Source: Chitinibacter sp. SCUT-21 (GTDB lineage: Bacteria > Pseudomonadota > Gammaproteobacteria > Burkholderiales > Chitinibacteraceae). Taken from it: a stretch of DNA of 64,000 nucleotides. The DNA is taken from contig CP102611.1 of NCBI GenBank assembly GCA_041874755.1, positions 1,984,001-2,048,000 of the forward strand, given 5' to 3'. The notes under the pieces are model-generated. The model had not been told where the DNA came from and made no database searches. It saw only the letters and a program-made list of their open reading frames with translations. Positions 8,675 to 59,775 of this stretch are shown here, one piece after another (position 1 is the first letter of the stretch; every line of letters begins with the position of its first letter). The translations under genes and the position numbers were made by a program.

Positions 8675-9151
8675 CTAGGCCAGCATATTGCGGATTTTGG
8701 CGAGTGTGCGTAACTCTTGGCGCGCAAACTCAAGTACATCGTCTTCGTCGATAACGGTATCGCTGGCGATAGCGCTAAGATCTAATCCCAATTTGGCAGC
8801 CAAACGCGCCGCGGCTGGGCTGACGCTAAAAGGGGCGGCGCTGACCGCTTGATGTGCTTCGACAGTGGAGGAAGTGGGTTCCAAGCCCCATTCCGCAGTG
8901 GGCTTTTCAGCGATTTCCATCATCAACAATAAATCATTGCTGTTCACAAAATCGCCATGCGCCACCATCAAACTGCTGATTTGTCCGTCGTCGGGCGCAT
9001 GAACCGGCCATTCCTGATCGGCGGCAAGCAGCGTAATGAGCACCGAGTCGGCCAGAACTTGCTGACCGGGTTTCACGTGAAACAACACGACTTCAGCAGA
9101 TTCGGGAAGATCAGGGGCGCATATCAGGTGCGTGGTGTAACTGATTGTCAT
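8675..9151 (-). CDS. stand-alone lipoyl-like plus E3-binding-like domain protein
   Basis: A 158-residue protein that looks like the front half of a 2-oxoacid dehydrogenase E2 without the catalytic domain. Residues 1-75 follow the biotinyl/lipoyl barrel pattern (VKPGQQVLADSVLITL, then VHAPDDGQISSL). However, the hairpin that should hold the modified Lys reads LLAADQEWPV and has no Lys. Residues about 108-143 (VSPAAARLAAKLGLDL, then IDEDDVLEFA) match the peripheral subunit-binding domain. It has no E1, E2 or E3 neighbour. It may be a regulatory or scaffold protein. A parS-like site lies inside its 5' part. Confidence 0.7.
   Translation of the reverse strand: MTISYTTHLICAPDLPESAEVVLFHVKPGQQVLADSVLITLLAADQEWPVHAPDDGQISSLMVAHGDFVNSNDLLLMMEIAEKPTAEWGLEPTSSTVEAHQAVSAAPFSVSPAAARLAAKLGLDLSAIASDTVIDEDDVLEFARQELRTLAKIRNMLA
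9069..9084. promoter_or_regulatory. parS-like ParB-binding site A
   Basis: The 16-mer GGTTTCACGTGAAACA matches the parS consensus TGTTTCACGTGAAACA at 15 of 16 positions, and the 14-bp palindromic core is intact. It lies inside the coding region of the lipoyl-like protein. Confidence 0.8.
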
Positions 9152-24894: not shown

Positions 24895-24910
24895 GGTTTC
24901 ACGTGAAACA
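24895..24910. promoter_or_regulatory. parS-like ParB-binding site B, abutting parE
   Basis: The 16-mer GGTTTCACGTGAAACA matches the parS consensus at 15 of 16 positions. It ends on the base immediately before the parE ATG and so occupies the place where a ribosome-binding site would be. Confidence 0.8.
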
Positions 24911-30443: not shown

Positions 30444-30471
30444 GGGGGCTGTTTCACGTGAAACGGCCCCC
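30444..30471. promoter_or_regulatory. parS-like site C inside a 28-bp palindrome upstream of parC
   Basis: The 16-mer at 30450-30465 (TGTTTCACGTGAAACG) matches parS at 15 of 16 positions. G and C tracts extend the palindrome to 28 bases with one mismatched pair. It lies about 80 bases upstream of parC and could also act as a hairpin ending the preceding transcript. Confidence 0.82.
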
Positions 30472-49047: not shown

Positions 49048-49316
49048 TTTTATCTGCCAAAACAGACCTTTCATCTTCAGCACTTCCCGCCTTTCGTACG
49101 TTGCAATGCAACGTTAGTCTAGCTAACAAGACAATTTCCTAAATCTGAACTATTTTAGTAAAGCTAGTTGAAATAAAAATCAACATTGATATGTAACCAA
49201 TTAGCTACATCAAACTAACCGTTTATCCATTTAAATATACAGCACATCGTTTAAGGCAGTGGCCCTACCACAAAACAAAATACTATTACTGCAACAATAT
49301 TATTGGAGTGGAAAAG
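49048..49316. other. AT-rich region with dyads upstream of the minor pilin cluster
   Basis: No gene is seen. Two adjacent inverted repeats, CGTTGC-AAT-GCAACG (49099-49113) and GTTAG-TCTAG-CTAAC (49113-49127), could be operator sites. The rest is AT-rich and probably holds the promoter of the pilin genes. Confidence 0.45.
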
Positions 49317-49823
49317 ATGCTCGTGCGTGGTTTTACATTAATTGAAATGTTAGTAACACTGGCGATATTGGGTATATTAATGGCAATTGCAATTCCTTCG
49401 TACCTTGACTTAATTGACAGACAAAAATTAGTTGATGCAACAGAGAAAATTTATAGTGATTTGCAAATAATGCGGACTGCAACAAAGTCAAAAAGTGAAG
49501 ATGTTTATATTAATGTAAATAAGACTGGAAATAATTGGTGTATCGGTTCCAATTTAAAAACAAGCTGTGATTGCACTCAAGATACAGAATGTACAACAAC
49601 AAAAACAAAATCAGCAGAGTTTCCTTCCATTGATATTGATGGAATGTCATTAAATGGCCAGCAATTTGATCAAGTACGTGGGATATTAAGTTCAGGCTAT
49701 GGCGATATAACTTTAATCTCAAGCAGAGGAAAAAAAACAACTATTAAGTTAAATGCTGTTGGTGATATTTCAGTTTGCTCACCAAGTGGAACAACTAGAA
49801 TTGGAGATTATAAAGCATGTTAA
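49317..49823 (+). CDS. type IV minor pilin, FimT/GspH-like
   Basis: A 168-residue prepilin. The class III signal is very short: after MLVR comes the cleavage motif G/FTLIEMLV with Glu at +5 and a hydrophobic N-terminal helix. The C-terminal globular part has several Cys (CSPSG, YKAC) and a GspH/FimT-like strand pattern. GGAG lies 11 bases before the ATG at 49317; a GTG at 49308 is an alternative. It is the first gene of a four-gene minor pilin set, overlapping the next gene by 7 bases. Confidence 0.85.
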   Translation: MLVRGFTLIEMLVTLAILGILMAIAIPSYLDLIDRQKLVDATEKIYSDLQIMRTATKSKSEDVYINVNKTGNNWCIGSNLKTSCDCTQDTECTTTKTKSAEFPSIDIDGMSLNGQQFDQVRGILSSGYGDITLISSRGKKTTIKLNAVGDISVCSPSGTTRIGDYKAC

Positions 49824-50512
49824 AACAATCAGGATTTTCACTGATAGAATTAATGATCGCAATGGCAATTGGTATCTTTGCCTTATTAGCCATATCGACG
49901 GTAATGACAAACAATATTCAATTTGGAAAAAACACAATTGATTTATTAAAGCTAAACCAAACAATGAGAAGCACTATGAATATCATCAGTGATGATATTC
50001 GACGTGCAGGATATTGGAATAATGCGAGCAAATTATTAGATGGATCCGCAACACAAAATCCACATGCCTATCCAAATTCTCCGGTGACAATCGGAACCAA
50101 TTGCATCATCTTTTCCTATGATAGGGATAATGTTGGCGATACGGTGAATGATAGTGAGAAATTTGGTTATGCCCTAATCAATAATACAATCTATATGCGA
50201 ACACCAGGTTCATATTATGGCTGTGATCCAAGCTTAATCAGCAGTAGTAATCCTGCATGGCAAGCAATTACAGATCCAGCAAAAATTAAAGTTACAACTT
50301 TCACTTTTACAAAAACTGCACCAACTGATTCAAGCCATCAAGTTAGCTATAACTCATCAACTAATATTTGCATCACAGATATAAAAATTGAGATTAATGC
50401 AGAAACAAAAAGTATAAATAGTATCATTAAACAACCAATTCAAAAAATAATTAGAATACGGAACGACACAATCAGAACTGATACCGCATCAACCAGTAGA
50501 GTTTGTGCATAA
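49817..50512 (+). CDS. pilW: type IV minor pilin, PilW-like
   Basis: A 231-residue prepilin. Leader MLKQSG, cleavage before FSLIELMIAMAIGIFALLAI with Glu+5. The following LNQTMRSTMNIISDDIRRAG is the PilW signature (a helix ending in Asp-Ile-Arg-Arg-Ala-Gly). Minor pilins form the tip or priming complex of type IV pili and take part in adhesion, twitching and DNA uptake. It lies between the FimT-like and PilX-like genes. Confidence 0.85.
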   Translation: MLKQSGFSLIELMIAMAIGIFALLAISTVMTNNIQFGKNTIDLLKLNQTMRSTMNIISDDIRRAGYWNNASKLLDGSATQNPHAYPNSPVTIGTNCIIFSYDRDNVGDTVNDSEKFGYALINNTIYMRTPGSYYGCDPSLISSSNPAWQAITDPAKIKVTTFTFTKTAPTDSSHQVSYNSSTNICITDIKIEINAETKSINSIIKQPIQKIIRIRNDTIRTDTASTSRVCA

Positions 50513-50522
50513 GGAAAATAAA

Positions 50523-51707
50523 ATGATTAAACATCAAAAAGGAACAGCAACTCTATTTGTCTCAGTGGTTGCTTTATTAATAATGACTATTGTCGCATTC
50601 TTTGTAAATAGATCAACTATTTCTGATGTATTGAATGCTTTAACAATGAATCAGAGCAGTAAGTCATTTGAAGCGGCTGAAGCAGGGCTTAATTTTGCGC
50701 TAGCCAAAATTAATGATGAAACGTTGGTGACGATAGCAGGAGTTCAAACTCAGTCATTCAAACAATATTTTTGTACAGGTAATTATGTAAAAGATAGTAC
50801 TAATGGCTGCAATGCAACATTAACTAATAATTCCACTAACAAGTATATTTTTAACGAAAATGCACCTGATTCAGCATATGATTTTCAGGTCACTATGGAA
50901 AGTCCAGACCCTACCAAGGGTTTAATTATTACATCCATTGGTGGAAAAGATAATTGCTTATTTGGAATTAATTGCAATAAAAAAACAATAAAAACAACTT
51001 TTGCTATAGCACCTTTTCTAACTAAATTACCTCCTGATGCGATTTCCTCACCAGGTAGTGTAACTATTGGGGGTAGTACTTGTGCAGAAAACTCAACAGG
51101 GAATGGCGGATTTGCTGTTCGCGCAGGCTCAAGTGCCAGCACTACCAATAATCTAAACGGCACAGGCTGTACTGCTAGTGGTAATGGTTTTCATGGTGCA
51201 ATCTCAACCGTTGATGGCAGTTTACAAGGGATGCAGGGTGGATTGGGTGCCATGCCATTAAGCTCAAGTGCAAACGATCTTCAAACTTACTTCCAGTATG
51301 TTTTTGGCAAATCCCCGAACGAAATGTATGCCGAAGCCGATGTTAAAGCATCAGATTCTTTAAGTAATTATTCAGGCTGTGCTAAATCATGCGGCAAAAT
51401 TATCTGGCTTAATAATCCAGGTAATAATTTGGCTGGTACCTTTGGTACATTAGATGATCCAGTCATTGTAATTATTAATGGATCAGTCGATACGAGCTCA
51501 AATTTTACTATTAATGGTCTTTTATACGTATCAGGTTCTTTAACTACAAATGGTAATCAAACCGTGAATGGCGCTATTTCAGTAGCAGGTGCATATAATT
51601 CACAGGGTTCTATTGATATTAAATATGATAAGTCAATCTTTGATGCGGCCAAAAAAATTCACGCTGGTTATACTATGCTGGGTGGTGCTTGGCGTGATTG
51701 GCAATAA
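50523..51707 (+). CDS. PilX-like pilus assembly protein
   Basis: A 394-residue protein. The N-terminal hydrophobic helix (about 7-27, GTATLFVSVVALLIMTIVAF) matches PilX N-terminal domains, and SSKSFEAAEAGLNFALAKI contains the EAAEAG motif of this family. The helix lacks a Glu at the prepilin +5 place, as is usual for PilX. The C-terminal part, low in charge and rich in Asn, Ser, Gly and Thr, ends with a beta-rich repeat (SGSLTTNGNQTVNGAISVAG). AAGGAA supports 50523 as the start. Confidence 0.75.
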   Translation: MIKHQKGTATLFVSVVALLIMTIVAFFVNRSTISDVLNALTMNQSSKSFEAAEAGLNFALAKINDETLVTIAGVQTQSFKQYFCTGNYVKDSTNGCNATLTNNSTNKYIFNENAPDSAYDFQVTMESPDPTKGLIITSIGGKDNCLFGINCNKKTIKTTFAIAPFLTKLPPDAISSPGSVTIGGSTCAENSTGNGGFAVRAGSSASTTNNLNGTGCTASGNGFHGAISTVDGSLQGMQGGLGAMPLSSSANDLQTYFQYVFGKSPNEMYAEADVKASDSLSNYSGCAKSCGKIIWLNNPGNNLAGTFGTLDDPVIVIINGSVDTSSNFTINGLLYVSGSLTTNGNQTVNGAISVAGAYNSQGSIDIKYDKSIFDAAKKIHAGYTMLGGAWRDWQ

Positions 51708-51730
51708 TTGGTGGATATTGGAGCAGAATC

Positions 51731-53131
51731 ATGCATAAGTTAAATAAATCACTCGGATTTTCCCTCGTTGAGATGTTGGTCGCCTTAGTCATTCTCGCTG
51801 TAGGTTTACTAGGATTAGCTGGATTTCAAAGTAAAATGATGTCAGAAGCCACTCGTTCGAAAGAAACGAGCATCGCAGAAATGTTGGCAAAAGAGAAAAT
51901 GGAAGAATTGCGACAAAAAGGCTATGTAGCAGTGTCAGCAATGGCATCATCCGCTTCAGAAACAATTATTCAATCAAATTATTCGCAAGTAAATTTAATA
52001 CGAACAGTTTCTATTGCATCTGGCCCAGCCCCTGATTCAAGATTAGTTACTGTACTAATAACTTGGCAAAATAGTGCGGGAGATAATAAGTCATTTGAGC
52101 TGAAATCGTATATTGCTAAATATGATCCAAAAGATTTTGTGACATCAACGGCAGCGAATCAAGCTGCTAATGATCCTATTGCAACGATTAGAGAATGGAC
52201 TAAGGATAAAAGCTGGGGTAAAGATGTCATAGTTAAGTATAAAGATCCAACAACAGGAACAACTAAGTACTATATCTCCGAAAGTCAACATTACGATGAT
52301 ATAAATACTATTAGTAAGCCTTCTGATAGTAACCAATGGACTGAGGCCTATTTTTTAGAAGGTAAAGCACAATGGAGAACAAATAATCTTAGTGATGGTT
52401 CGATCTGTGAAATTCGGCTACAGGATGAAGCGACTGCTTTTGTAACTAAGCCAAAAAATCCAGGATCTGGAATTGATTATGATATTTCAAAAACAGTCCC
52501 TTCAACCACTGCACGTCGGTGTAGCCCTAACTTGATTTCTGGAAGTGGCATGTTGCAGGCTAATTTTGCTTGTGCATTGAAGGTTACTGAAATTAATCCT
52601 GGAAAAAGTATATTTTTAGGTTGTGGTATTGAAGGTGGACAAAATAATATTTTGAAATCGACTGTTGCCGGTGCTTATAAGGTTGCTACTAAGGATATTG
52701 TTTTATCTATTTGTGAAGGAAGCGGAACTTGTGCATTCCCAACACCATCACCAACACCATTAACAGCACCTAGTCCAACGCCTGTCCCAACCGTAACTCC
52801 AACGCCAGAACCTGGTACTACACCATTACCAACGGCTGAGCCGATTAGCCCGGCAACCATTAACATTAAGGTTAATTTAAGTGCAAATAATAAAGATGCA
52901 GCTACAAGTTGCACTATGAGTTATACCAATTCATGTTCGCAAACAACATATAGTACCGCGGTAAGTTCAAATAGTACTACCCGCGTTTATAGTGATTCTT
53001 GTTCAATTATTGCACCATATACAGAAGCTGTAGCGACTGCTGTTTGTAAAAGGGATAATAATAGTACAGAGACACAATCAATTACCATTAAAAATGGTGA
53101 AACATATTTAATAGATTTTAACATCTTATAG
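51731..53131 (+). CDS. pilV: type IV minor pilin, PilV-like, with long C-terminal extension
   Basis: A 466-residue prepilin. The leader MHKLNKSLG precedes FSLVEMLVALVILAVGLLGL with Glu+5, then AGFQSKMMSEATRSKE, the PilV pattern. Usual PilV proteins are about 150-200 residues. Here a long extension follows, with a Pro/Thr linker (PTPSPTPLTAPSPTPVPTVT) near 340-375 and a terminal beta domain of about 90 residues with four Cys. It may be a tip adhesin. GGAG lies before the ATG at 51731. Confidence 0.82.
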   Translation: MHKLNKSLGFSLVEMLVALVILAVGLLGLAGFQSKMMSEATRSKETSIAEMLAKEKMEELRQKGYVAVSAMASSASETIIQSNYSQVNLIRTVSIASGPAPDSRLVTVLITWQNSAGDNKSFELKSYIAKYDPKDFVTSTAANQAANDPIATIREWTKDKSWGKDVIVKYKDPTTGTTKYYISESQHYDDINTISKPSDSNQWTEAYFLEGKAQWRTNNLSDGSICEIRLQDEATAFVTKPKNPGSGIDYDISKTVPSTTARRCSPNLISGSGMLQANFACALKVTEINPGKSIFLGCGIEGGQNNILKSTVAGAYKVATKDIVLSICEGSGTCAFPTPSPTPLTAPSPTPVPTVTPTPEPGTTPLPTAEPISPATINIKVNLSANNKDAATSCTMSYTNSCSQTTYSTAVSSNSTTRVYSDSCSIIAPYTEAVATAVCKRDNNSTETQSITIKNGETYLIDFNIL

Positions 53132-53133
53132 AC

Positions 53134-53153
53134 AAAGGGGCTTCGGCCCCTTT
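53134..53153 (+). terminator. terminator of the minor pilin operon
   Basis: AAAGGGGC pairs with GCCCCTTT around the stable TTCG tetraloop, followed by AATATTTT, directly after the pilV stop. Confidence 0.88.
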
Positions 53154-53253
53154 AATATTTTATTAACTAATAATTTTGAATTTATCTAGATAGTTACCTA
53201 TAAAAATCAATAAATTAATTTAATATTTAAAGCTTGGTATAACTCATTAAGAT

Positions 53254-53733
53254 TTAAATCTTACTAATAATTTCAGCATAGTCTGGAATACCAATGTATT
53301 TCTTAACCAATTTCCCATCTTTACCTATTAAATAATTGGTCGGCGTTAATGTAACGCCTCCGTATTTCTTTGCAATTTCACCATCTGCATCATGAACTAT
53401 TTTAAATGGAATATTTTCTTTTTTATTATAGTTTTTAATGTATTCAATATTGTCGTAATTCATTGCTACTGCAATCGTTTGAAAACGGTTTTCACCATAT
53501 TTCAGTTGTAATTTTTTTAGCTCAGGCATCTCTTGCATACAGCCTGTACAGCTGGTTGCCCAAAAATTTACCAGTACTATCTTACCTTTGTAGTCAGATA
53601 ATTTGATCTTTTGACCATCTAAGGTAGTCATTAGGTGCTCTGCTGGTAGTTGATCTTCACTTGAAAGTACAAAGTAGCTAGCTATAGCAGTGGTCAGTAG
53701 GCAAGCAATGATCACTTGTAGACGGGTTTTCAT
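53254..53733 (-). CDS. TlpA/ResA-like membrane-anchored thioredoxin
   Basis: A 159-residue periplasmic protein. The N-terminal helix (about 5-23) anchors it or is a signal. LSDYKGKIVLVNFWATSC followed by TGC places the CxxC redox pair (Cys-Thr-Gly-Cys) near 62-65. VTLTPTNYLIGKDGK has the cis-Pro loop. Such proteins reduce cytochrome c apoproteins or metal-site Cys. AAGGAAAA precedes the ATG. It is AT-rich like the adjacent pilin cluster and is divergent from the DnaA-box region. Confidence 0.88.
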   Translation of the reverse strand: MKTRLQVIIACLLTTAIASYFVLSSEDQLPAEHLMTTLDGQKIKLSDYKGKIVLVNFWATSCTGCMQEMPELKKLQLKYGENRFQTIAVAMNYDNIEYIKNYNKKENIPFKIVHDADGEIAKKYGGVTLTPTNYLIGKDGKLVKKYIGIPDYAEIISKI

Positions 53734-53804
53734 AGGGTTTTCCTTCGTTCGTTGGGTATTTTATGGCATGTAGTCTGTTTTGCGTGTGCTTTTGTTCCGT
53801 AAAT

Positions 53805-53870
53805 CAAGGAAGGTTTTCTTTACATATATATTGATAAGAAAAGGATAGTAATAATAAATAAGGGCAGCTA
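53805..53870. other. AT-rich tract beside the DnaA-box cluster
   Basis: A stretch dominated by A and T (ACATATATATTGATAAG, AATAATAAATAAGG) lies directly left of the first DnaA box, the arrangement expected of a DNA-unwinding element. It could instead be simple promoter DNA. Confidence 0.5.
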
Positions 53871-53875
53871 AAACT

Positions 53876-54006
53876 TGTGGATAAGTCATTTTCTATAATT
53901 GATTCAATACTTTATACTATCCACAAGTCTTCTTACCTTTTCGGTATCCCCTGTGGGTAATTTGGTGAGGGTTTTATCCACAGATGATTTTATTGGATTA
54001 TCCACA
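53876..54006. promoter_or_regulatory. cluster of five DnaA-box-like sequences (candidate oriC or DnaA-binding locus)
   Basis: Three exact TTATCCACA 9-mers lie at 53876-53884 (minus), 53974-53982 (plus) and 53998-54006 (plus). One-mismatch boxes lie at 53917-53925 (CTATCCACA) and 53952-53960 (TTACCCACA, minus). The first two form a perfect 11-bp inverted repeat, ACTTGTGGATA and TATCCACAAGT. The region is gene-free. Confidence 0.7.
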
Positions 54007-54098
54007 GTGCGGGTCGTTCTTGCACACATGCCAAGTATCTGATTTGTTAAGACGTTTGTGAATAAGCGTATAATCGCGCTTTTTCTTGGGGGTGCATG

Positions 54099-55010
54099 AT
54101 GGCAATTCAGTGGTTTCCGGGACATATGCATGTGGCTCGCAAGAAAGTTGCTGAGACCTTGGCTAAGGTTGATGTGGTGATTGAGATTGTTGATGCACGT
54201 ATGCCTTTGTCGAGTAGCAACCCGATGATTGAGAAGTTGCGGATGCATCGACAGCGACCAGCGTTGAAGATTTTGAATAAGGCTGATTTAGCTGATCCAA
54301 CTCTGAACAAAGTCTGGTTAGAGTGGTTTCGCGCTCAGCCTGGTACCGAGGCGATTTTGCTGGGTGAAGATAACAAACAAGAAGCGTTAAAGAAGATTCC
54401 ACAGCTGTGTTTGAAGTTGGCCCCGTTTCGTACTGGGGTTGAAAAACCGCTGCGTGCGATGATTATGGGTATTCCTAACGTTGGTAAATCGACTTTGCTC
54501 AATACTTTGGCGCAACGCAAAGTTGCTAAAGTGGCTGATACGCCGGGGGTGACGAAATCTCAGCAACGGATTGAAACGTTGGGCGGCGTTATTTTGTATG
54601 ACACGCCGGGTTTGATGTGGCCTAAAGTCGAGCATGAGCCTTCCGGCTTTAGATTAGCGCTTGGTGGCTCGATTGGTCGTAATGCTTATGATGAAGTGGA
54701 AGTGGCGTACTTTGCGATTGAGGCTTTGAAAGCGCGCTATCCAGCCGAATTGATGAAGCGTTATAAATTGCCTGATTTGAATGGCGAAGTGGAAGAGTTG
54801 TTTGAGCGCATTGGCCGTAAGCGAGGCGCGGTGATGAGTGGCGGGATTATTGACGAGCAAAAAACGGCGGATTTGATTATTACCGATTACCGCACGAAAG
54901 CGATTGGTCGCATGACACTGGAAACGCCGGATGATTTCATTGGTGTTGACTTGGGCTCGGGTGATGATCTGGCTGAATCCGACGTTGCGGATAGCGAAGA
55001 AGCGCAATAA
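54099..55010 (+). CDS. ylqF: ribosome biogenesis GTPase YlqF/RbgA
   Basis: A 303-residue circularly permuted GTPase. The motifs come in the order G4 (ILNKADLAD), G1 (GIPNVGKSTLLNTL) and G3 (YDTPGLMWP), as in the YlqF/YawG family. The N-terminus IQWFPGHMHVARKKVAE is diagnostic. In Bacillus the protein matures the 50S subunit. GGGGG lies 4-9 bases before tandem ATG codons; the second, at 54099, gives the better spacing. It lies directly right of the DnaA-box cluster. The C-terminus is acidic. Confidence 0.94.
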   Translation: MAIQWFPGHMHVARKKVAETLAKVDVVIEIVDARMPLSSSNPMIEKLRMHRQRPALKILNKADLADPTLNKVWLEWFRAQPGTEAILLGEDNKQEALKKIPQLCLKLAPFRTGVEKPLRAMIMGIPNVGKSTLLNTLAQRKVAKVADTPGVTKSQQRIETLGGVILYDTPGLMWPKVEHEPSGFRLALGGSIGRNAYDEVEVAYFAIEALKARYPAELMKRYKLPDLNGEVEELFERIGRKRGAVMSGGIIDEQKTADLIITDYRTKAIGRMTLETPDDFIGVDLGSGDDLAESDVADSEEAQ

Positions 55011-55178
55011 TCATGAATAAATGAGATAGGTATTAATTTGAAGACTATGTTGGATATTGTTTTCAAGGCTATACCTATTGATGCTGTGGGTCGAGATTAG
55101 GAGTCGTTCAGATCTGAGCGCGAAATTGTTTAAAATGAGCTTAATATTGCTTGTTAAGTCCATGATTGGAAGAGTGAG

Positions 55179-55379
55179 ATGGAAGCAGAATTAGGAACGC
55201 TGGAAGAGAAAGTGAAGCAGCTGGCTGATCTATGTCGCCATTTGCGCAATGAAAATCGTGAGTTGCGCCAAGCTTTGTTGCAGGCAAATCATGATAATCT
55301 GCATTTGCAGCAAAAATTGGCGGGAACGAAAGAGCGAGTTGCAACCATCTTGGCAAAATTGCCGGAGGATATGGCATGA
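55179..55379 (+). CDS. ZapB-like / TIGR02449-type coiled-coil protein
   Basis: A 66-residue, nearly all-helical protein (LEEKVKQLADLCRHLRNENR, then ALLQANHDNLHLQQKLAGTK) forming a coiled coil. Small coiled-coil proteins of this type regularly precede zapA and are thought to act with it at the division ring. GGAAGAG stands before the ATG. The stop overlaps the zapA ATG (ATGA). Confidence 0.82.
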   Translation: MEAELGTLEEKVKQLADLCRHLRNENRELRQALLQANHDNLHLQQKLAGTKERVATILAKLPEDMA

Positions 55380-57230: not shown

Positions 57231-59775
57231 ATGTCGAGCAATCCTGTAAGCCAGATTGAACTCAAAGCGCCTATATCCGGTGTGATGGTGCCTTTAGAAA
57301 AAGTGCCTGATCCAGTTTTTGCCCAAAAAATGGTGGGTGATGGGATCTCGATTGATCCAACCAGTAATGTATTGGTAGCCCCGCTGACGGGTAAAGTCAC
57401 CCAGTTGCACTCGTCAAAACATGCTGTGACTGTGACCTCCCCAACGGGAATCGAAGTGTTGATGCACATTGGTCTTGATACCGTGATGCTCAAAGGCAAC
57501 GGTTTTACTGCCAAAGTAAAAGAAGGCGATATCGTTGATGCTGGCCAAGCATTGATTGAGTTTGATATGGATTTGGTGGCGCGCAAGGCGGTTTCGCTGC
57601 TGACCCAGATCGTGATTACCAATAGCGATCAGGTTGCTAAATTTACCCCTGCGACTGGCTTAGTCGTTGCAGGACAAAATACCGCATTAACATTGCAGTT
57701 AGCTGCTGGCGTTGCAGGCGCGACTCAAGCAACTACCGCATCGAGCGAAGCTTATTCTGATCCAATCAAGGTGCCTAACCATACTGGTTTGCACGCGCGC
57801 CCATCTGCTGTTTTGGCCAATGCGGCAAAAACATACCAATCAGAAATTAAATTGGTCCGCGCAGGTGAAGAAGCGAACGCGAAATCGGTCGTTGCGATTA
57901 TGGGTTTAGAAGTTCAGCATAATGATGAAATTCGTGTCCGCGCCGCAGGTCCAGATGCGGCTGCGGCGGTAAAAGCATTGTCTGAGTTGATTCTCACTGG
58001 TTGTGGTGAAGATGTTGGCGGTCCTGTGCCGAAAACCAAACCAGCGCCAATGAACATCAAAACGGCCAAGCCAAAACCAAAGTCAGATGATCCAAATGTC
58101 TTGACGGGGGTTTCTGCATCGCCCGGTTTGGCGGTGGGTAATGTGTTTCATGTGAAACAAGAAGAAATCGCCGTGGTTGAAAAAGGTGAAGGGCAAGCGG
58201 TTGAAAAGCGTCGTTTGGATAAAGCGCTGAAAGATGCTCATCAGCAATTGGAAAATCTAAAAGCTGAAATTTCCGACGCCAGCAAAGCTGAAATTTTCGC
58301 CGCTCATCAAGAGTTGTTGGAAGATCCAGATTTACTAGCGATTGCTATTGCCAACATCGGCCAAGAAAAAAGCGCCGCTTTTGCCTGGAAAATCGCATTC
58401 ACTACTTACGCCGACAAATTGGCAGGCTTGAAAAACGAAGTATTGGCTGGCCGTGCCAACGATATCCGCGACGTGGGTCGTCGCGGTATTGCGCTTGATC
58501 GCTGGTGTTGAAGAAGCGGCGATGGTTGTTCCTGAAAATGCGATTTTGATTGCGGAAGAACTCACGCCATCTGATACCGCCAGCATGGATCGCACCAAAG
58601 TATTGGGTTTCTGCACCACCGGTGGTGGCGCAACCAGCCACGTTGCCATCTTGGCGCGCTCGCTCAATATCCCTGCGATCTGTGGTATTGACGAAGACGT
58701 GTTGGAATTAGCCAATGGCACCCCTGTAATTCTGGATGGTACGCGCGGCACATTGCGCAAAAACCCATCGGAAGCTGAGGTGGCAGCGATTCGCGACAAA
58801 CAAGCTGCGCAAGCTACAAAACGTGCGGCTGAATTGGCTGCGGCGTTTGAACCTGCGGTGACTAAAGATGGTACGCACGTTGAAGTGGTTGCCAATATTG
58901 GTGGTTTGGACGACGCGGTTGATGGTGTGAAGTTGGGCAGTGAGGGTGTGGGTCTACTACGTAGCGAGTTCCTGTACCTAGAGCGCACCGACGCGCCAAC
59001 GGAAGAAGAACAAAGCCAAATTTATATCGATATTGCTAAAGCACTGGGCAACGATAAAACCTTCGTTGTACGTACGCTCGACGTCGGTGGCGACAAACCA
59101 TTGGCTTACTTGCCGATGCCAGTCGAAGAAAATCCATTCTTGGGGATTCGCGGTGTGCGTTTGTGCTTGGCTGAGCCAGAAATCTTGCACACCCAAGTTC
59201 GTGCGGTATTGCGCGCTGCGCCATATTCAAAATTGGCGATCATGTTCCCAATGATTACCAGCTTGGAAGAAGTGCGCGAAGTGAAACGCGTCGTGGCCGA
59301 AGAAAAAGCCGCACTCGGTATTACGCAAGACGTGCAAGTCGGCATTATGGTTGAAGTACCTGCCACTGCAGTGATGGCGGAGCAATTTGCGCGTGAAGTT
59401 GATTTCTTCTCGATCGGTACTAACGATTTAACGCAATACACTTTGGCGATGGATCGTGGTCACCCGAAATTGGCGAAACAAGCCGACGTGATGCACCCTG
59501 GTGTATTGAATCTGATCAATATGACGGTGCAAGGTGCGCACAAACACGGTAAGTGGGTTGGCGTGTGCGGCGGTATCGCGTCTGATCCAATGGCGATTCC
59601 ATTATTGCTCGGCATTGGTGTCGATGAATTGTCGGCCAGCGTGCCAACGATTCCGGCGATCAAAGCGCTGGTTCGCACTTTGGACAAAGCTGAATGCCAG
59701 AAACTGGCCGCAGAAATCTTGCAATTGGGTACCGCGGCTGAAGTGCGCGCCCGTTTATCTCAGCTGGTTGATTAA
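57231..59775 (+). pseudogene. PTS IIA-HPr-EI fusion protein, interrupted by an apparent one-base insertion
   Basis: Read as one gene this is a multiphosphoryl transfer protein of about 847 residues. IIA-Glc-type domain (about 1-150, phospho-His79 in LMHIGLD), HPr domain (about 180-265, His188 in GLHARPSAV), then EI (from about 290). A single extra G at 58485 or 58486 shifts the frame: the first part stops at 58511, and the rest continues from about 58487 in another frame with GGGATSHVAILARS (EI His) and GVCGGIASDP (EI Cys). Both parts are otherwise intact. It could be a sequencing error, a recent mutation, or less likely recoding. Confidence 0.9.
58144..58159. promoter_or_regulatory. weak parS-like sequence D
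   Basis: TGTTTCATGTGAAACA matches the parS consensus at 15 of 16 positions, but the change breaks the central palindrome. It lies inside the coding region of the IIA-HPr-EI fusion, so it may be chance. Confidence 0.45.

Follow-up and report, generated by a model that had tools for sequence, protein, structure and literature searches.

The replication origin of E. coli lies away from dnaA and combines an unwinding region, an R1 box in TGTGGATAA orientation, an IHF site and further DnaA boxes. For this origin a DNA unwinding element (DUE) and an IHF site have been described (PMC4285127), and its location is given as gidA-mioC (PMC10225481). The basal unwinding system of B. subtilis is described by a DnaA-trio rule, in which a run of NAN triplets lies within 16 bp of a DnaA box (PMC8287927). 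For Laribacter hongkongensis, which has been placed in the Neisseriaceae (PMC2652115), an oriC with eight DnaA boxes was predicted by Ori-Finder (PMC3135505). Origins away from dnaA are already known, and the oriC of Synechococcus lividus PCC 6715, an exception in its lineage, is recorded far from both dnaA and dnaN (DoriC 10.0, PMC6323995). As a default landmark, dnaA serves in an origin finder (PMC10225481) and in a genome-rotation study (PMC9584773). Among the papers listed in the literature searches, none was, judged by its title and abstract opening, on an origin in Chitinibacteraceae or at ylqF; a DoriC prediction may exist.

We analysed a window of 64,000 nucleotides (genome positions 1,984,001-2,048,000) from Chitinibacter sp. 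SCUT-21, whose genome is a single contig of 3,454,474 bp and 99.99% complete. Based on the sequence features described below, we propose with a probability of about 0.93 that window positions 53818-54065 represent the chromosomal replication origin (oriC). A box cluster, an AT-rich element beside a box, a change in the sign of the GC skew, nearby parS sites and conservation in relatives are all present at this site. Adjacency to dnaA, which is usual and not required, is absent, as dnaA-dnaN-gyrB is found at 2.44 Mb, 402 kb from the box cluster (dnaA by family match, dnaN and gyrB by eye from translations). Because exceptions are known, adjacency to dnaA is not a defining feature of an oriC. 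What is new is the address; in kind, the site would be a classical DnaA origin.

The exact DnaA box sequence is TTATCCACA, and the first five boxes together span 53876-54006, exactly 131 bp (Table 1). The anatomy described by the initial annotation held in all its parts. Three exact boxes and two with one mismatch were confirmed within 131 bp, a density beyond that of all 10 simulated genomes. The 11-bp inverted repeat is indeed perfect (ACTTGTGGATA at 53873-53883, its complement at 53918-53928), and its left arm is overlapped by the R1 box. The AT-rich tract beside the boxes was located at 53820-53864 with 80% AT, and no credible gene exists in the gap between the redoxin gene and ylqF; one mechanical ORF of 114 aa overlaps this gap.

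As a null for box density we used 10 first-order Markov genomes of 3.45 Mb, six with the composition of the window and four with that of the AT-rich stretch at 49-54.1 kb. Their densest 131 bp contained 2-3 boxes with at most one mismatch and at most one exact box, versus 5 and 3 observed. The pattern TTATNCACA occurs at 89 places in the genome, 21 of them exact TTATCCACA, and its densest stretch is the proposed origin with 4 sites in 190 bp, followed by 3 sites in 212 bp at 646,693-646,904. One-mismatch boxes outside this pattern were counted in the window and in the other stretches analysed, and the claim of uniqueness is limited to TTATNCACA. Since the box density is beyond chance and, for TTATNCACA, unique in the genome, it argues for an oriC. 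Two minor groups of three DnaA boxes, each within about 330 bp, are located far from this site at genome positions 646,693-646,904 and 666,482-666,814; they are possible titration or regulatory sites.

The AT-rich tract at 53820-53864 has a dG/bp of -1.02, and by nearest-neighbour energy it belongs to the least stable 0.1% of 45-bp stretches in the window. The trio rule applies here with four NAN triplets at 53850-53861 and a spacer of 14 to R1. No GATC site is present in 53739-54100, so that sequestration of the SeqA/Dam type is not indicated. An Rfam search of 53000-55200 yielded nothing above gathering scores.

Table 1. Features of the proposed origin and its surroundings (window coordinates)
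Feature	Position	Strand	Basis or remark
parS-like site	9069..9084	+	one mismatch
parS-like site	24895..24910	+	one mismatch
parS-like site	30450..30465	+	one mismatch
TlpA/ResA-like redoxin gene, left-hand neighbour	53254..53733	-	present in 6/10 named family loci
AT-rich DNA unwinding element (predicted)	53818..53864	+	ATATATATTGATAAG block common to Chitinibacter and Deefgea sequences (alignments)
DnaA-trio-like run (TAG TAA TAA TAA A TAA)	53846..53861	+	family alignment and NAN-triplet rule
R1-type DnaA box, exact	53876..53884	-	TGTGGATAA on the + strand; adjoins the unwinding element
IHF-binding-site-like sequence ATTCAATACTTTA (predicted)	53902..53914	+	one mismatch; 17 bp after R1
DnaA box CTATCCACA	53917..53925	+	one mismatch; R1+41; offset kept in 15/31
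DnaA box TTACCCACA	53952..53960	-	one mismatch; R1+76; offset kept in 25/31
DnaA box, exact	53974..53982	+	R1+98; offset kept in 6/31
DnaA box, exact	53998..54006	+	R1+122; at R1+122 or +123 in 22/31
Sigma-70-like ylqF promoter (TTAAGA-16-TATAAT; predicted)	54047..54074	+	10/12 consensus matches
Sixth DnaA box TTATTCACA	54057..54065	-	one mismatch; within the ylqF promoter spacer
ylqF (ribosome biogenesis GTPase), conserved right-hand neighbour	54096..55010	+	TIGR03596 equivalog
parS-like site	58144..58159	+	one mismatch; 4.3 kb from R1

On its right-hand side the site is followed by housekeeping genes, namely ylqF, a ZapA-like gene and HPr. The ylqF product matches TIGR03596 with 309.9 bits (cut-off 208.2), and the family alignment favours a start at 54099. 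Among 10 named family loci, 6 have the redoxin gene within 3 kb, so that it is a less constant neighbour than ylqF. Promoter-like sites number two in the region versus 1.5 in shuffles, and the TATAAT of the predicted ylqF promoter shows a conservation of at least 90% over the 31 rows of the family alignment. In 15 of the 31 distinct family sequences, the stretch from -39 to -49 relative to ylqF holds a box with one mismatch or none. As judged from the rightmost box, which overlaps this conserved promoter, DnaA may influence ylqF.

Directly left of the redoxin gene and the proposed origin, an AT-rich group of pilin-like genes was recognized by eye at 49308-53131. One of its members gave a PilV-like match just below the cut-off, and one ORF has no match at all. 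The GC content of this group in two-kb bins is 0.35-0.44 vs about 0.46-0.54 in the rest of the window, and the group was possibly acquired.

For the family Chitinibacteraceae, 40 ylqF loci (30 from whole genomes, 10 from named records) were collected, and after removal of 9 duplicates 31 distinct upstream sequences remained; Chitinibacter sp. GC72 (L055) and G001, a genome of the same genus as the one studied, share an identical upstream region. All 31 contain R1, i.e. TGTGGATAA next to the unwinding tract, with one mismatch or none. A trio-like run, for which three or more NAN triplets no farther than 16 bp from R1 were required, is present in 25 of the 31; in a 30-row alignment (A1) the adenines of the trios recur at a three-base step, A30 and A36 being invariant and A33 at least 90% conserved, and are followed by a conserved ATAAGG. 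In some genera the trios are less regular. A site that deviates from the IHF consensus WATCAANNNNTTR by one base at most occurs within 45 bp of R1 in 24/31 sequences vs 1.4 expected from shuffles, and 23 of these sites start 17 bp after R1. One gene for IHF alpha scores above the NCBIfam cut-off in this genome. The offsets of the boxes from R1 are also kept, with +76 in 25, +122/+123 in 22, +144 in 17 and +41 in 15 of the 31 sequences.

A sequence-only model of the module (117 positions), trained on 30 family sequences, matches all 43 family genomes at E up to 0.001. The match lies upstream of ylqF in 42 of them, representing 11 genera. In 36 of the 37 genomes with ylqF coordinates it precedes ylqF by 164-189 bp in the same orientation, and ylqF is also beside the match in six further family genomes. 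The one genome that departs from this is G030, whose assembly is fragmented and 6% contaminated and whose sole match is on another contig than ylqF; we count this against an oriC at ylqF. The model matches its 30 training sequences by construction, and among the 13 family genomes outside the training set 12 have the module at ylqF. Because the module is kept at this gene in 42/43 genomes, its conservation argues for an oriC.

The sequence model replaced an earlier pattern of two exact inverted boxes, which was applied to 26 genomes and matched in 3. This strict pattern missed the site described here, since the box at R1+41 has a mismatch, and mainly picked up a palindromic repeat in G057, a relative from the same order (family f22). 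There, a MITE-like palindrome (AATAAGTGGGGTCAGACTCGACTTAATTT...TGTGGATAACTGG...) is interspersed in the genome, with two exact DnaA boxes in each copy; the pattern hit ten copies, and the eight loci viewed (e.g. L285-L292) comprise seven distinct copies. This palindrome could titrate DnaA.

GC skew along the genome was read from sampled stretches and not continuously. Within the window, skew is negative in 17 of the 23 two-kb bins that precede 46 kb and positive in all five beyond 54 kb. The cumulative skew of the window rises steeply from 54 kb, with its minimum at 49,295 in a flat stretch, about 4.6 kb left of the box cluster, a displacement that we count against the proposed origin. On the chromosome scale, skew is negative in all 10 samples taken between 540 kb and 2,037 kb. 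Of the 13 samples that follow, from 2,038 kb past the end of the record and on to 366 kb, 12 have positive values (exception -0.016); in eleven extra samples the positive arm was again positive in 5/5. An opposite, noisy reversal occurs at about 0.24-0.44 Mb, where six samples at 240-486 kb are mixed (0.000, -0.054, -0.108, 0.070, -0.026, -0.144). The antipode of the box cluster falls at 0.31 Mb and that of dnaA at 0.71 Mb, inside the negative arm, and by the sampled skew dnaA-dnaN-gyrB is situated inside one arm. The reversal at this site, together with the opposite reversal near its antipode, argues for an oriC. A search of the genome for a dif site, with a consensus sequence and up to three mismatches, gave no match, and the placement of the terminus therefore follows from skew alone. 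The one exception on the positive arm, the mixed samples at the terminus and the missing dif match we count against the proposed origin.

In 10 relatives, comparison of the 10-kb sides of ylqF revealed a change from negative to positive in 4 and a higher right side in 9, with the opposite in G016; for the 10-kb sides of dnaA such a change was seen in 0 of 10. That the change at ylqF is confined to 4 relatives we count against the proposed origin. Local skew over 10 kb is noisy in the relatives, and G005, G028 and G015 were sampled more widely. In G005, all 12 samples up to ylqF are negative, the adjoining stretch has -0.001, and 9 of the following 11 are positive, the exceptions being -0.024 at 3.0 Mb and -0.036 at 3.55 Mb. 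In G028, the 10 samples between 1.6 and 3.88 Mb all have negative skew and the other 14 positive skew. The change falls no more than 75 kb from ylqF, and the value is already positive (0.021) in the 10 kb to the left of this gene. The gene dnaA lies inside one skew arm in both genomes. Since their arms also change at or near ylqF, G005 and G028 argue for an oriC at this place. The skew of G015 is near zero from 2.96 to 3.16 Mb (>100 kb) and clearly positive at ylqF; it does not decide between ylqF and the second module of this genome, and we count it against the proposed origin.

Sites within one mismatch of the parS consensus number seven in the genome. All of them are located at 1,892,733-2,042,159, at most 146 kb from the cluster, and none is near dnaA, a distribution that likewise argues for an oriC at the cluster. 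Such sites were present in 13 of the 14 genomes searched, and in 10 of these 13 they are closer to ylqF than to dnaA; the distance to ylqF is 100 kb in G026 and, for one site, 211 kb in G011. In G012 and G029 dnaA is 27-30 kb from ylqF, and the sites, between both genes or nearer dnaA, are non-discriminating. This partly applies to G032 as well, where two of three sites are nearer ylqF. We count these three genomes, and the lack of any such site in G016, against the proposed origin.

In the 12 kb analysed at dnaA, the boxes amount to an exact one upstream of the gene and two isolated ones with one mismatch. For 10 relatives (nine single-contig genomes and G012 with two contigs), the 20 kb surrounding dnaA have a single box in their best 250 bp, in 10/10. 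Two boxes within 250 bp were found at 0 of 14 family dnaA loci, three of which start at a contig end. Because dnaA neighbourhoods without a cluster are common to this genome and all ten relatives, they argue for an oriC elsewhere, at the conserved module. Across 14 family genomes, ylqF and dnaA are separated by 27 to 413 kb (G002, G011 and G031 without wrap-round correction).

Other families of the order show a different arrangement. Among the 28 other-family dnaA loci returned from 60 genomes, 17 have at least 2 boxes per 250 bp and 3 have at least 4. Upstream of ylqF, 12 genomes of 12 other families have no cluster; 11 are without a box and one has a single one-mismatch box. In a search of the order with stricter filters, the family model matches 82/200 genomes at E up to 0.01, and seven of the 82 belong to the family. 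Of 57 other-family genomes with dnaA coordinates, 18 have a match among the matches listed. In 11 of these 18 it is located 0.6-1.0 kb from the dnaA match, where the dnaA-dnaN gap is situated; in the other 7 it lies elsewhere, and these we count against an oriC. The vicinity of dnaA is thus the commonest place of the module in other families, among the matches listed. That the family model also matches beside dnaA in 11/18 of these genomes supports the oriC reading, and as judged from these matches the module is probably homologous across the order and the origin of Chitinibacteraceae has probably moved from dnaA.

In G042, G062, G067, G075, G082, G083 and G087 all matches listed are away from dnaA, 15-347 kb from it (G042 counted across the record start) or on another contig. 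Matches away from dnaA are candidate origins only; detached origins may be commoner in this order, and detachment from dnaA may have happened more than once.

The initial annotation had regarded the site as either an origin away from dnaA or a titration site like datA, and had pointed to skew, to dnaA and to relatives as places to look. An origin away from dnaA is supported, since the sampled skew changes sign at the box cluster with no skew minimum found elsewhere, a single exact box instead of an equally dense cluster lies beside dnaA, and the box cluster is conserved next to ylqF in 42/43 family genomes. A datA-like or DARS-like site, with the true origin elsewhere, e.g. at dnaA, is not favoured and appears very unlikely to us. 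Dense boxes and an IHF-like site would also fit datA and DARS of E. coli, and the second modules in 13/43 family genomes make DnaA-binding hubs without origin function plausible; however, the skew reversal and the parS sites centre here rather than at dnaA, R1 is accompanied by an unwinding tract and a trio-like run, and the genome has no comparable TTATNCACA cluster elsewhere. Less probable still is a DnaA-regulated ylqF promoter that is not an origin. The overlap of the last box (54057) with the sigma-70-like promoter and its conserved TATAAT would be explained, but five to eight phased boxes with an unwinding element, in many members, are by general knowledge not needed for a DnaA-controlled promoter. 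Moreover, 12/12 ylqF upstream stretches of other families are without a cluster, and the chromosome-scale skew would be left unexplained.

The frequent position of the module in other families (dnaA vicinity in 11/18 listed) and the 17/28 dnaA loci there with at least 2 boxes per 250 bp could also point to an origin at dnaA-dnaN, from which a recent large inversion or translocation has displaced the skew reversal. Since 0/14 family dnaA loci have two boxes within 250 bp and dnaA is inside one arm in the three genomes with resolved arms, at differing distances from ylqF, we assign this explanation a slim chance, below that of a mere promoter. The chance is negligible that the site was left behind by an integrated plasmid or element that brought its own DnaA-dependent origin: a compact module beside variable left-hand genes would suit such a remnant, but not the same place in 42/43 genomes of 11 genera, the housekeeping genes to the right, or module matches beside dnaA in other families.

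For the chromosomal origin at ylqF, the arrangement of the parts suggests how it would work. DnaA would bind R1, the exact box at 53876, together with the phased boxes on its right-hand side, and IHF would bend the DNA 17 bp beyond R1, so that the right-hand DnaA molecules are brought back to R1. From there, a DnaA filament would run leftward onto the DnaA-trio-like strand and open the AT-rich tract 53818-53864, where the helicase would be loaded and from which two forks would leave. The DnaA protein of this genome contains GGRDHTTVLHACR near its C-terminus, which we take to be the box-reading signature of DnaA. With the module at ylqF and not between dnaA and dnaN, initiator gene and origin would be unlinked.

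A second match to the module occurs in 13/43 family genomes from four genera, at genus-typical places, and is counted against the proposed origin, as are the higher scores of the second copy in G021 and G022. These second modules may be DnaA reservoirs, second origins or decaying copies. In Deefgea (g11), all 7 genomes have a weak second match (E 1.7e-5 to 9.5e-10), which is 109-136 kb away in the three genomes with both on one contig. That of G015 (G015:C1:3,042,149-3,042,233, L338) lies 136 kb from ylqF and adjoins a glutamate-5-kinase-like gene (AA_kinase and PUA domains); it may, like those of Deefgea in general, represent a datA-like site, a second origin or a relic. All 3 genomes of genus g8 (G012, G021, G029) have a second module about 0.9-1.0 kb after the ylqF start, and in G021 this copy outscores the one upstream of ylqF. 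As it is located at or just past the ylqF end, ylqF is flanked by two copies in g8, reminiscent of bipartite origins around dnaA. Both genomes of g10 carry a second module 1.8 kb upstream of ylqF. In g9, one of 3 genomes (G022) has a second module 51 kb away that is stronger than the ylqF copy, and the origin may be moving again in this genus (G022, G030). Cells with a second module may use two DnaA-dependent origins or keep the extra copy as a DnaA reservoir.

The second copies in 13/43 family genomes suggest movement by duplication. Of the six genomes of family f21 that have listed matches, four (G056, G135, G165, G192) combine a copy at dnaA-dnaN with another at a different place, and for G099 and G216 a single match is listed; the placement at dnaA-dnaN was made by eye from the genes, for G056 by the distance to the dnaA match. 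The second copies of these four genomes keep the distance of 123 bp from R1 to the plus box. The same distance is seen in the dnaA-dnaN copies of G165, G192 and G099, and not in that of G135. Tentatively, and at somewhat less than even odds, we envisage that in this order the module moves by duplication, with a copy seeded elsewhere, a phase of coexistence and decay of the old copy, and that Chitinibacteraceae have completed such a move from dnaA-dnaN to ylqF.

In the 14 family genomes measured, dnaA as a landmark for the origin would be wrong by 27 to 413 kb, and a misplaced landmark distorts analyses of gene dosage, replication rate and strand bias. The family-wide shift, the dnaA-linked modules elsewhere and the genomes with two copies provide a testable case of a bacterial origin changing its address, and the family lets one ask whether the unlinking of dnaA and oriC alters the control of initiation.

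Compared with the known systems, the site resembles E. coli oriC in being detached from dnaA and in the order of its parts and the orientation of R1 (TGTGGATAA), and a predicted IHF-like site is likewise found next to R1. It differs from E. coli oriC in its neighbours, redoxin and ylqF, in its distance of 402 kb from dnaA and in having no GATC sites for Dam/SeqA in 53739-54100. With the basal unwinding system of B. subtilis it shares the NAN run beside a DnaA box in 25/31 sequences, but the trios of Chitinibacteraceae are deduced from sequence and 6/31 miss the rule. The predicted oriC of Laribacter hongkongensis is also a cluster of DnaA boxes, a likeness that covers the boxes and not the genome address. 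The site also resembles the oriC-like modules beside dnaA in other families of the order: R1 and the plus box are 122-123 bp apart in 22/31 family sequences and 123 bp apart in the dnaA-dnaN copies of G165, G192 and G099. Unlike in those families, the dnaA loci of Chitinibacteraceae have no cluster and the module is at ylqF. In Synechococcus lividus the boxes are of the cyanobacterial type TTTTCCACA and the detached origin is an exception of its lineage, whereas the detached site described here is common to 42/43 genomes of its family.
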